Of a stretch of 64,000 nt of DNA, positions 50,049-54,309 are shown one piece after another. Position numbers and translations under genes: made by a program. Source of the DNA: Opitutales bacterium. Lineage in GTDB: Bacteria > Verrucomicrobiota > Verrucomicrobiia > Opitutales > UBA953. Numbering within the stretch: the first letter of the stretch is position 1; each line of letters starts with the position of its first letter. Below the pieces are notes generated by a model. That model ran no database searches and was not told where the DNA came from. It was given only the letters and a program-made list of their open reading frames with translations. The DNA lies in assembly GCA_017531845.1 (NCBI GenBank), contig JAFXKI010000003.1, forward strand, positions 62,001 to 126,000, read 5' to 3'.

Positions 50049-51842
50049 TTATTTTTCCAAAACGGAAAATTCGGCACCGGCACCGTAAATCCCGCCGCTT
50101 TGCGAAGAAAGTGCACGAAAACGAATGAAGCGCGCCGCCACCGGAGCCGGGAAAATCACGCGCTTTTCTTCCTTATCAGCGGAGAAGTTGCCCGTCGCGA
50201 CAGCCGTTCCCCAGGTTTTCCCGTCGTTGCTGACGAAAATCTCGTAACCTTTGACGTCGCCGTTTGTGCTGTCCTGGCGCGGCAAGTAACTCACGCCCTT
50301 AATCGTTTTGACTTCGCCGATATCGAAATCGATTTCGTGCGGATAGTCCGCCTGTGTTACGGAATACGCCGTATGCCAAATCGTTGCGGGGTCGCCGTCA
50401 GTCAGGTTTGCTGCCGCTTCTGCTCCGCTGTTTTCCGAGCTGGCGTAAACAACTTGGGTGCGGACTTTTTCGATTTTCGGGAACGTCAATTCCGTTTTAA
50501 TGTCCGGCAAATCCTCAAAGCGCGCGGAAATCGTTCCGCCATCCTTAAGAGGAATCGTTCCCGTGTAAACCTGCTCGGGTGCACCGTTGACGGAAACGAG
50601 AATTTTTGCGTCCGCTTTTCTGGACGAAACGGAAACGACTCCGTTTTCGCTGCGCGTGACGGAAATCGGCACGGCACCGGACGGCGAAACATTTGCAGAA
50701 GAAACCAACTCATACGGACTTTCCACCGGGCGGATGATGAAGCCGAAATCCGTCGGAGCGGCAAAAACTTTGTCGCGTTTTTCCGTATCGGGACCGCAAC
50801 TTGCGCCTCCGAGCCCGCGCACGCCGACATCGAGATTGAGCGTCGTCGCCGTCGAATTGGCAACTTTGTCCTCGAGTTTAAACGGATTGGTCGCAAAAAG
50901 CAGGTCGAGTGCTTTTACCGGCAAGGCCTGAGCGGAAAACGTGCCGTCGCTTGCAACGAAGATTGCGCCCTGTCCCTTACCGTTTAAAAGCGAGCACCAA
51001 CGGACGTCTTCGTGATTCCCCATTTCCTGCGGCTTGGTGTAATTCGTCATTTGCTTGGCAACGCTCGTTCCGTGAATCGCGATAAACGCACCGGACTGAC
51101 GGTCGGCGTAGTTTTCCTGCGGACCGCGCCCGTAATAGACGAACGTGGAATAATCGGCGGGAACGTCCAACGTATAACCGAGACGAGGAAGATCGAAATT
51201 CGGTTTATTCGAGGTGATATTTGCGGCGAGCTCCACGGAACCGTCCGGGTAAACCGTCCAGATTTGCTGCGTTGTAAACGCTAAATCATCCTGACCCAGT
51301 TCGCGTCCGAGTTCGATTTTCATCGGAGTTCCGTTGGTGGCGCTTCCGTATTGAATCATCGGATCGCCTTTGAGTTCACCGGCATTTTTACCCTGCGAGC
51401 GCACGAGCACGGAAAGCGTAACCGTTCCGTCCGCATTTTTCACGAACGAAGGTTTTCCGAGAACCTCATGCTTCATGTCGAAAAGCCCTTGCTGAAACCA
51501 ATTGCGATACGCCCAGCCGTCGTTGTTCACGATGGCTCGAAACGCGTTCAGCTTCGGACCGTTCCCGTCAACGATGACGGATTTTCCGCCGTAGACGAGG
51601 CTTTCGAGCGTTCCCGTTTTTTTGGAAAAACGCGCTGCGAAATTCGTTCCCTGCACGATAAAGGAAGTTTCCGTTTCCGTCGCAGAAAGCGGAGCACTCA
51701 CCGACGGTTGCTGCTCGGCTTCGACTGCGGGAACGTCGGCAACAGCCGCCGCCTGCGGTTCCGCTTCGTTGCAACCCGTAAACGCTGCAAGCGCGAGCGC
51801 GGCAAGCATCGCGGGAACGCTGTATTTCAAATTTTTCTTCAT
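50049..51842 (-). CDS. Lipoprotein with beta-galactosidase small-chain domain and F5/8 type C domain
   Basis: A 597-residue exported lipoprotein. The signal peptide KYSVPAMLAALALAAFTGC ends in a lipobox. Residues about 60-340 are the beta-galactosidase small-chain (domain 5) fold: GTNFAARFSKKTGTLESLVYGG, LNAFRAIVNNDGWAYRNWFQQGL, FVYYGRGPQENYADRQSGAF and NHEDVRWCSLLNGKGQGA are signatures of the C-terminal part of LacZ. Residues about 450-597 form an F5/8 type C (discoidin) carbohydrate-binding domain (YASSENSGAEAAANLTDGDPATIWHTAYSV, VSYLPRQD, YEIFVSNDGKTWG, ARFIRFRA). It is 31 bases downstream of the gene for domains 1-4 and would complete a LacZ when assembled. The start is ATG 51842; a TTG at 51848 is open upstream. 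Confidence 0.9.
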   Translation of the reverse strand: MKKNLKYSVPAMLAALALAAFTGCNEAEPQAAAVADVPAVEAEQQPSVSAPLSATETETSFIVQGTNFAARFSKKTGTLESLVYGGKSVIVDGNGPKLNAFRAIVNNDGWAYRNWFQQGLFDMKHEVLGKPSFVKNADGTVTLSVLVRSQGKNAGELKGDPMIQYGSATNGTPMKIELGRELGQDDLAFTTQQIWTVYPDGSVELAANITSNKPNFDLPRLGYTLDVPADYSTFVYYGRGPQENYADRQSGAFIAIHGTSVAKQMTNYTKPQEMGNHEDVRWCSLLNGKGQGAIFVASDGTFSAQALPVKALDLLFATNPFKLEDKVANSTATTLNLDVGVRGLGGASCGPDTEKRDKVFAAPTDFGFIIRPVESPYELVSSANVSPSGAVPISVTRSENGVVSVSSRKADAKILVSVNGAPEQVYTGTIPLKDGGTISARFEDLPDIKTELTFPKIEKVRTQVVYASSENSGAEAAANLTDGDPATIWHTAYSVTQADYPHEIDFDIGEVKTIKGVSYLPRQDSTNGDVKGYEIFVSNDGKTWGTAVATGNFSADKEEKRVIFPAPVAARFIRFRALSSQSGGIYGAGAEFSVLEK

Positions 51843-51873
51843 AGTCAAAAAAATATCTCCGATTGAGGTTGGT

Positions 51874-54309
51874 TTATTTCTTGGAGGCGTCGAGGAGCGA
51901 CGGACGCTTTTCGGCAGGTTTGATCAAAATCTGCTCATCCATTTGCACATAGCCTTTTTTCGCCCAGTAAGCGTCGTTTTTGAGATGGAAGCGAATCGTC
52001 ACAAAATATTCCGCGTCCGGACGAAACTCGCCGTGCGTAGCCTTTACTTCGGCAAACGGAAGAGCGACCGTCTTTTTTGTGCGGGCGGGAACGTCGCCGA
52101 TTTCGAGCTTACCGCAACCGATGACGACACCGTCTTCTGCAAGCGTCCAAGTTACGTCGTATTCCGACAAGTCCTTGAAATAATTTTTATTGAAAATTTC
52201 GAGCGTTCCCGCGAGCGGATCAACCGCACTGACGCCAACGTTCTGATAAACCTTTTTTACTTCGTAATACTGCGGCTTCGGTTCGCGATCGCCAAAAATC
52301 AAGCCATTCATAACGAACTGCCCGTCGTTCGGGAACTCGCCAAACTGCCCGCCGTAAGCGAGGAAACGCTTTCCGGTTTCGCCGTCGTAATTGTAAATGG
52401 ATTGGTCAACCCAGTCCCAAATCGCGCCGCCCATAATGTAGTTGGACGATTCAATAGCGTCCCAATAGTCTTTGAGGTTTCCGAGCGCGTTACCCATCGA
52501 GTGCGCGTATTCGGAAATGTGGAACGGATATTTGCGCCCGGCATCCCCGCGAGCGGAACCGATGACCCAGCCGACGCTCGGATATTGATTCGAGCCCATA
52601 TCCACGATCGAATTATTGCGTTCGTATTGCACGGGGCGCGAAGTATCAAGTGCCTTTAACGCGTTGTAGGCGTGAACAAAATTTTCACCGGGACCTGCCT
52701 CGTTTCCGAGTGACCAAATCACAATTGAGGGCTGATTTTTGTTGCGCTCAACCATTTCCATCACGCGTGCAACGTGCGCCGCCTTCCATTCCGGCGGGTG
52801 GGAAATGGATTCTTTCCCGTAATAGTATTGGTGAGATTCAATATTCGCTTCGTCCTCCAGATAAATTCCGTATTTGTTGCAAAGATAATACCAATACGGA
52901 TCGTCCGGATAGTGAGAGTTGCGCACGTGGTTAATATTTGCGCGCATCATGAGTTTAATTTCTTCCTCCATGTCCTCACGGGTAACGGCGTGACCGCGCT
53001 CCGGATGTGATTCGTGGCGGTTTACGCCTTTGAGCTTCACGGTTTTATCGTTCACGTAATACCAACGTCCGTCCGTGCCGAAATCGTCGACCGCATTTTT
53101 GATTTCCGCCGTGCGGAATCCGGTTTGAACGGAAATTGTTTCCGTTACCCCCGAGCGCGGCTCTATGAGTTCCGCGACAAGCGTGTAGCAATACGGTTTT
53201 TCCGCCGACCAAAGCTTCGCACCGGGCAAAGAAATTTTCGCAACGGGAGAATCCTTTATTTGCCCCGGCGCGGGAACGGTGAAAGGCACTTCTGTGACAG
53301 AAACGGGTTGCGCCCCGGCGGGAACGTCACCGTACAGCTCGTTTTCGTAAAGCGAATAGCGCAACGTCGCATTCAACGGGGACTGAACCGAGGCGGACTG
53401 CTGCCGACGATTCGTCAACTCCGTTTCAATCGTCATCGAGCCGTCAGCCGAAGGTTTCACGAAAATATCGCTGATGTAAATTTTCGGTGTCGAATACATG
53501 GAAACCGTACGGAAAATCCCGGGAAGGCGGAACATATCCTGCGCTTCGAGAAAAGAACCGTCGCTGTTACGGTAAACCTCAACGGCAATCGTCGCCGTTT
53601 CACCCGGCTTCACGTATTTTGTTACATCGAAGCACGCGGGATCGCGGGAATTTTTTGAAAACCCGATATATTTTCCGTTCACCCAAAGGTAAAAGAAGGA
53701 ATCAACCGCATCAAAATTGAGGAAAATTTCGCGTCCGTCCCAATCGGCGGGAACGGTGAAATCGCGACGATAAGAGCCGACTTCGTTGCGGTATTCATAC
53801 GTCGTGCGCCGTTTGTCGCGCGGTTCGCGCATCACGCCCTTTTTCCAGTCGCCTTCCTTGACTTCGTGCTCGAAGATCACCGGTTGATTCACGTAAATGG
53901 GTAAGCCGTATTTGTGGTGCCCGTTACCTTTCTTGGAAATGCCGACAACATTCCAGTTCGACGGCACGGGGATTTCGTCCCATGCGGAAACGTCAAAATC
54001 TTTTTTATAAAAATCTACCGGGCGTTCCGCCGGAGTTTTCACCCAATGGAATTTCCAGTTGCCGTTGAGGGATTTCCAGTATTTAGAGTCCGCTTCAGGA
54101 AAGATTTTCAGCGCACTTTGCACGTCCGCAAAAGGATAGAACGTCGCACGCGGCTGTTCTTTATTCAAAGCAAGCATTTGGGGATTTTCCCATTCCGTTC
54201 CCGCAGGCACGGAATCGTTCCCGTAGCGGAAACCTTCAAGAACCGGTTGAACGGCAAAACACTGCAGAGCAACAGCGCCGAACACGGCGGCAAATATCGT
54301 TTTATTCAT
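51874..54309 (-). CDS. lacZ: Beta-galactosidase large part (GH2, LacZ domains 1-4), exported
   Basis: An 811-residue GH2 enzyme with a signal peptide ([16 protein letters not shown]). The GH2 sugar-binding domain begins near 85 and the immunoglobulin-like and TIM-barrel domains follow. The acid/base glutamate is in [14 protein letters not shown] and the nucleophile in [32 protein letters not shown] and [14 protein letters not shown] are typical. It ends after domain 4 ([34 protein letters not shown]) and has no domain 5, which is in the next gene. The two are separated by 31 bases and presumably act together in the periplasm or outside. It hydrolyses lactose or other beta-galactosides. Confidence 0.92.

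Follow-up and report, generated by a model that had tools for sequence, protein, structure and literature searches.

The window, by which we mean the whole 64,000-nt stretch of DNA analyzed, comes from a Verrucomicrobiota gut bacterium and carries a LacZ that is split into two separate minus-strand genes with 31 bases between them (TAA to ATG). The pair most likely represents a periplasmic β-galactosidase assembled from two subunits, where assembly and activity are what we infer. We give the whole reading (one ancestral split, export of both parts, and periplasmic assembly via the domain 3/domain 5 interface) a probability of about 0.77. By sequence comparison, LacZ has here been divided naturally and independently between domains 4 and 5, giving a second, exported counterpart of the cytosolic LacL/LacM. 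The features of the locus are as follows.

51874–54309 including the stop (coding to 51877), minus strand: large-subunit gene, 811 amino acids, signal peptide and LacZ domains 1–4.
51843–51873, minus strand: 31 bases of intergenic sequence that include a ribosome-binding GGAG (ACCAACCTCAATCGGAGATATTTTTTTGACT).
50049–51842 including the stop, minus strand: small-subunit gene, 597 amino acids, lipoprotein signal, Bgal_small_N, and F5/8 type C domain.

The coordinates and Pfam assignments confirm the preliminary description, which had placed domains 1–4 and domain 5 in separate genes 31 bases apart. The large part contains GH2_N, GH2, the GH2_C TIM barrel, and LacZ_4 (residues 703–796, E = 2.7e-25), and the small part contains Bgal_small_N, which is LacZ domain 5 (residues 64–370), followed by a CBM32-like F5_F8_type_C domain (residues 466–591). 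Taken across the two genes, GH2_N, GH2, GH2_C, LacZ_4, and Bgal_small_N all score above the Pfam cut-offs; E-values across both genes range from 1e-80 to 1e-10, which excludes chance domain matches. Bgal_small_N occurs only once in the G000 genome (1.69 Mb, 11 contigs). Among solved structures, the F5/8 domain is closest to a C-terminal domain from a bacterial sialidase (1wcq), which we take to be the M. viridifaciens galactose-binding module. The large and small genes lie in different reading frames. The true start of the small gene may be an in-frame TTG (51848), which is better spaced than the ATG (8 nt downstream of the GGAG) and would lengthen the protein to 599 amino acids.

Both parts carry export signals, as had been proposed. 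The N terminus of the large part is an ordinary signal peptide without a usable lipobox; its ALQC sequence has Q at position −1, and the Cys is replaced by Ser in G002. The small part opens with MKKNLKYSVPAMLAALALAAFTG followed by C, where the lipobox FTGC (predicted cleavage between AAFTG and C24) agrees with the lipoprotein signal described earlier. A lipobox (FTGC, ATGC, AGGC, or FSGC) is found in six of the seven species with the split, and this makes membrane tethering plausible in those six. The proposed tether is not general, however: in G004 the small protein begins with a plain signal peptide that lacks the lipobox Cys, and so the lipid anchor is common yet not essential.

Conservation of the arrangement was examined in eight species genomes of the genus (G000–G007). 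Relatives that carry a name are Opitutales/Verrucomicrobia metagenome bins, of which two come from water deer and goat rectum. The preliminary description had suggested looking for the gene pair in related genomes. The two genes adjoin in six (G000 and G003–G007), whereas in G002 the two halves lie on different contigs and in G001 there is one single chain of 1363 amino acids. All seven split species carry both halves, and none has a large part without a small one. From stop to ATG, the gap measures 31 bases in G000, 30 in G003, 28 in G007, 26 in both G005 and G006, and 25 in G004; the GGAG ahead of the small-gene start is kept in 6/6 species with an assembled junction, and all three possible relative frames occur among the six junctions. 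Based on gene names assigned by reading the sequences, the pair sits in four neighborhoods (G000/G003, G005/G006, G004, and G007), in which only the pair itself is constant.

These junctions bear on the possibility that a normal single gene has been interrupted by a sequencing or assembly error, or is read through a programmed frameshift. Elsewhere in the phylum, some short Bgal_small_N frames (L168, L108, and L169) look broken or lie at contig ends, which would lend such an explanation some credit. The six junctions, however, come from independent assemblies, show three relative frames with a conserved GGAG, and lead into a second part that opens with its own export signal. The relative frame varies between species, which rejects a programmed frameshift, and an error joining two frames, named at the outset as the observation that could undo the claim, is ruled out by the same six junctions. 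We regard this explanation as having a vanishingly small chance of being correct.

No further split between domains 4 and 5 turned up in the stronger matches that were listed, which cover 372 genomes of the order and 387 of the phylum. Several candidates were discarded: the frames in G573 and G328 are broken within the N-terminal half, those in G620, G685, and G614 lie at contig ends, and the short Bgal_small_N frame of G377 combines GH2_N with domain 5 and has no TIM barrel. The last of these (L167, 4188–5669) encodes a 493-amino-acid protein with GH2_N-like and Bgal_small_N parts, which could be either an odd LacZ remnant or a binding protein. In G002 (L044 1–80, L093), the contig bearing the small gene starts with a 65-nt stretch of reverse dprA, next to which come the final codons of the large gene; either an inversion or an assembly chimera could have produced this junction.

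All of the LacZ residues tested are present in the large part. They comprise catalytic, metal-binding, and substrate-binding residues (E491, E537, Y576, E600, H603, N141, D258, H432, H466, H493, W631, F665, and N668). By sequence comparison, the catalytic acid/base, the nucleophile, and the Mg2+/Na+ ligands of LacZ are all accounted for (E537, E600, Y576, E491, H493, D258, H603, F665, and N668). In domain 5, 39 positions are conserved across 67 single-chain relatives; the split proteins retain 87–90% of them and the single-chain proteins a median of 90%. Where E. coli LacZ has Trp999, 7/7 split proteins have Cys (Cys349 here); 45/60 single-chain relatives have Cys there as well, so the split did not bring about this change. 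dN/dS is 0.04–0.12 for the large part and 0.02–0.19 for domain 5, values that place both halves under purifying selection, and in most comparisons domain 5 is the faster-diverging half. A split that represents gene decay, a first step toward loss, would fit the frequent absence of Bgal_small_N altogether from other genera of the family. It is nevertheless very improbable, given that each half shows high dS with a dN/dS that stays well under 0.2, and that there are seven species with the split in which the catalytic residues are all intact.

The large part might suffice for catalysis alone, leaving the small lipoprotein as a galactoside-binding protein in its own right, with no further part in completing the enzyme. 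Its separate export, possible membrane anchor, and sugar-binding module would suit such a role, as would the somewhat faster divergence of domain 5. We consider this distinctly unlikely, since the conserved residues of domain 5 are retained as often here as in single-chain enzymes that work, the two genes remain adjacent while every neighbor changes, and the large part is always accompanied by the small one.

We therefore return to the two-subunit periplasmic enzyme. Bgal_small_N helps to shape the catalytic site in solved GH2 enzymes (PMC5145203). We propose that, in an ancestor of this genus of Opitutales, a single-chain exported GH2 β-galactosidase (domains 1–5 plus F5/8) was cut a single time between domains 4 and 5, after which domain 5 would have acquired its own export signal. 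The large part would pass the inner membrane by means of its ordinary signal peptide, and the small part would be exported as a lipoprotein in most species. The halves could then join in the periplasm through the old domain 3/domain 5 interface, with domain 5 closing the pocket of the rebuilt β-galactosidase, and the F5/8 module, together with the lipid anchor in 6/7 species, would hold the enzyme near the membrane and its galactoside substrate. In this scheme, periplasmic assembly, the need for both parts, lipidation, and the substrate are the elements that we infer. Several observations count against the scheme: the faster divergence of domain 5, the exchange of large-gene sequence alone in G005, the single chain retained in G001, and the missing lipobox in G004. 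AlphaFold models of the two halves, built from seven-row alignments, gave pTM values of 0.46 and 0.28 and were too poor for fold searches. Tentatively, and with some doubt on our part, the lipid-anchored domain 5/F5-8 protein could act as a membrane dock that localizes and switches on the secreted catalytic part. If so, the β-galactosidase would be active only where both anchor and sugar ligand are present and would be under the control of extracytoplasmic subunit assembly.

Outside the genus, the single-chain protein nearest to the pair is one of 1352 amino acids from Phocaeicola massiliensis with an ordinary signal peptide (OY725981.1, L173, “plasmid 7”), which shares 59% identity with the large part and 48% with domain 5. 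In the tree, the split genes nest among single-chain Verrucomicrobiota/Phocaeicola genes, the nearest being this Phocaeicola gene, whose product has the same domains; this nesting shows that the single-chain state is ancestral. LacL and LacM of L. rhamnosus fall far outside the split-gene group, a placement to be read with caution for long branches. The discoidin (F5/8) domain is on the small part, as described earlier, but was not gained by it, because single-chain proteins of G001, G009, and Bacteroides already carry F5/8 C-terminal to domain 5. The Phocaeicola gene is closer than the other genes examined from Opitutales, and gene transfer between gut Bacteroidota and Verrucomicrobiota is likely.

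The grouping of the split genes depends on which part of the gene is considered. Around the junction (residues 600–811 plus domain 5), all split genes group together (90/92). In the N-terminal 600 residues, G004 pairs instead with the single-chain gene of G001 (100/99), and the AU test rejects a single clade of split genes (p = 0.0013), as would be expected from several independent splits within the genus. This alternative, which concerns the origin of the pair and not its function, seems unlikely to us. It is opposed by the grouping around the junction, by the similarity of the small-protein signal sequences across split species, and by recombination of part of the large gene between species. 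The last is seen in G005 (L047), in which a central stretch of the large gene, approximately 1.5 kb long, is 97–100% identical to G003 in most 150-base windows, whereas the small gene and the rest of the large gene match G006. This pattern directly shows recent interspecies recombination, and since it exchanged part of the large gene and nothing of the small one, the halves can evolve apart. The N-terminal grouping of G004 with G001 we likewise read as recombination; one split is the simpler reading, and two are less likely.

A galactokinase gene, named from its sequence, lies at 48796–49947 on the plus strand, convergent to the small-subunit gene. This adjacency is confined to G000 and G003, and none was seen in the other species of the genus. 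The space between the two genes contains an inverted pair of an octamer that is over-represented across the window.

49983–50015, no strand assigned: inverted octamer pair CGTTCCCG/CGGGAACG, with T after it (and, on the other strand, A before it).
49951, 49983, 49999, 46594, 46618, 15954, and 15977: example sites of the octamer CGGGAACG/CGTTCCCG.

The inverted pair is likely a bidirectional terminator between the small gene and the convergent galK. About 210 octamer sites (211) occur in 64 kb against 9.4 expected, or approximately one every 300 bases, equally on both strands and mostly within genes. The 9-mer GCGGGAACG is present in 3060 copies in G000, compared with 46 for the reversed control; there are 3353–4396 copies in G002–G006, 743 in G001, and 336 in G007, and counts in other genera are about background. 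The motif looks like a DNA-uptake sequence or a HIP1-type iterated element, although no match for the octamer or 9-mer was found in the literature. Some close inverted pairs (49983/49999 and 46594/46618) form terminator-like hairpins, as inverted pairs of Neisseria uptake sequences are known to do. The recombination in G005 would fit natural transformation with an uptake element. The over-representation of the octamer may be more unusual than the split β-galactosidase.

To our knowledge, this is the first LacZ split in which both pieces are exported and one is probably lipid anchored, and a limited literature search found no earlier report of an exported two-piece LacZ. The pair shows one gene becoming two in a setting where the new downstream part must acquire an export signal for itself. 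It is also a natural split enzyme with which to ask whether domain 5 is required for activity. The exchange of large-gene sequence between species in G005 suggests that the subunits tolerate substitution.

LacL/LacM of lactic acid bacteria are heterodimeric β-galactosidases of GH2 architecture type 2, and domain 4 has been lost from LacL (PMC5145203). The likeness to LacL/LacM that was noted earlier holds in outline: a catalytic part and a separate Bgal_small_N part are encoded by adjacent genes, with the large TIM-barrel subunit first. In detail it does not, since the large part here keeps domain 4 (LacZ_4), whereas LacL (626–628 amino acids) is without it. LacM (318–319 amino acids) has neither a signal nor an extra module, in contrast to the export signal and F5/8 domain of the small part. 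LacL/LacM are also intracellular and their genes overlap, whereas here both parts carry export signals and a 31-base gap separates the genes. The LacL/LacM sequences are distant from those of the split pair, which appears to be independent in origin. The single chain of Phocaeicola massiliensis has the same domain order (D1–D5 plus F5/8), but in one protein with one signal peptide where the Opitutales pair has two of each. E. coli LacZ (b0344) has domains 1–5 and the catalytic residues in common with the pair; it differs in being a cytosolic single chain without F5/8 and in having Trp999 where the split proteins have Cys.
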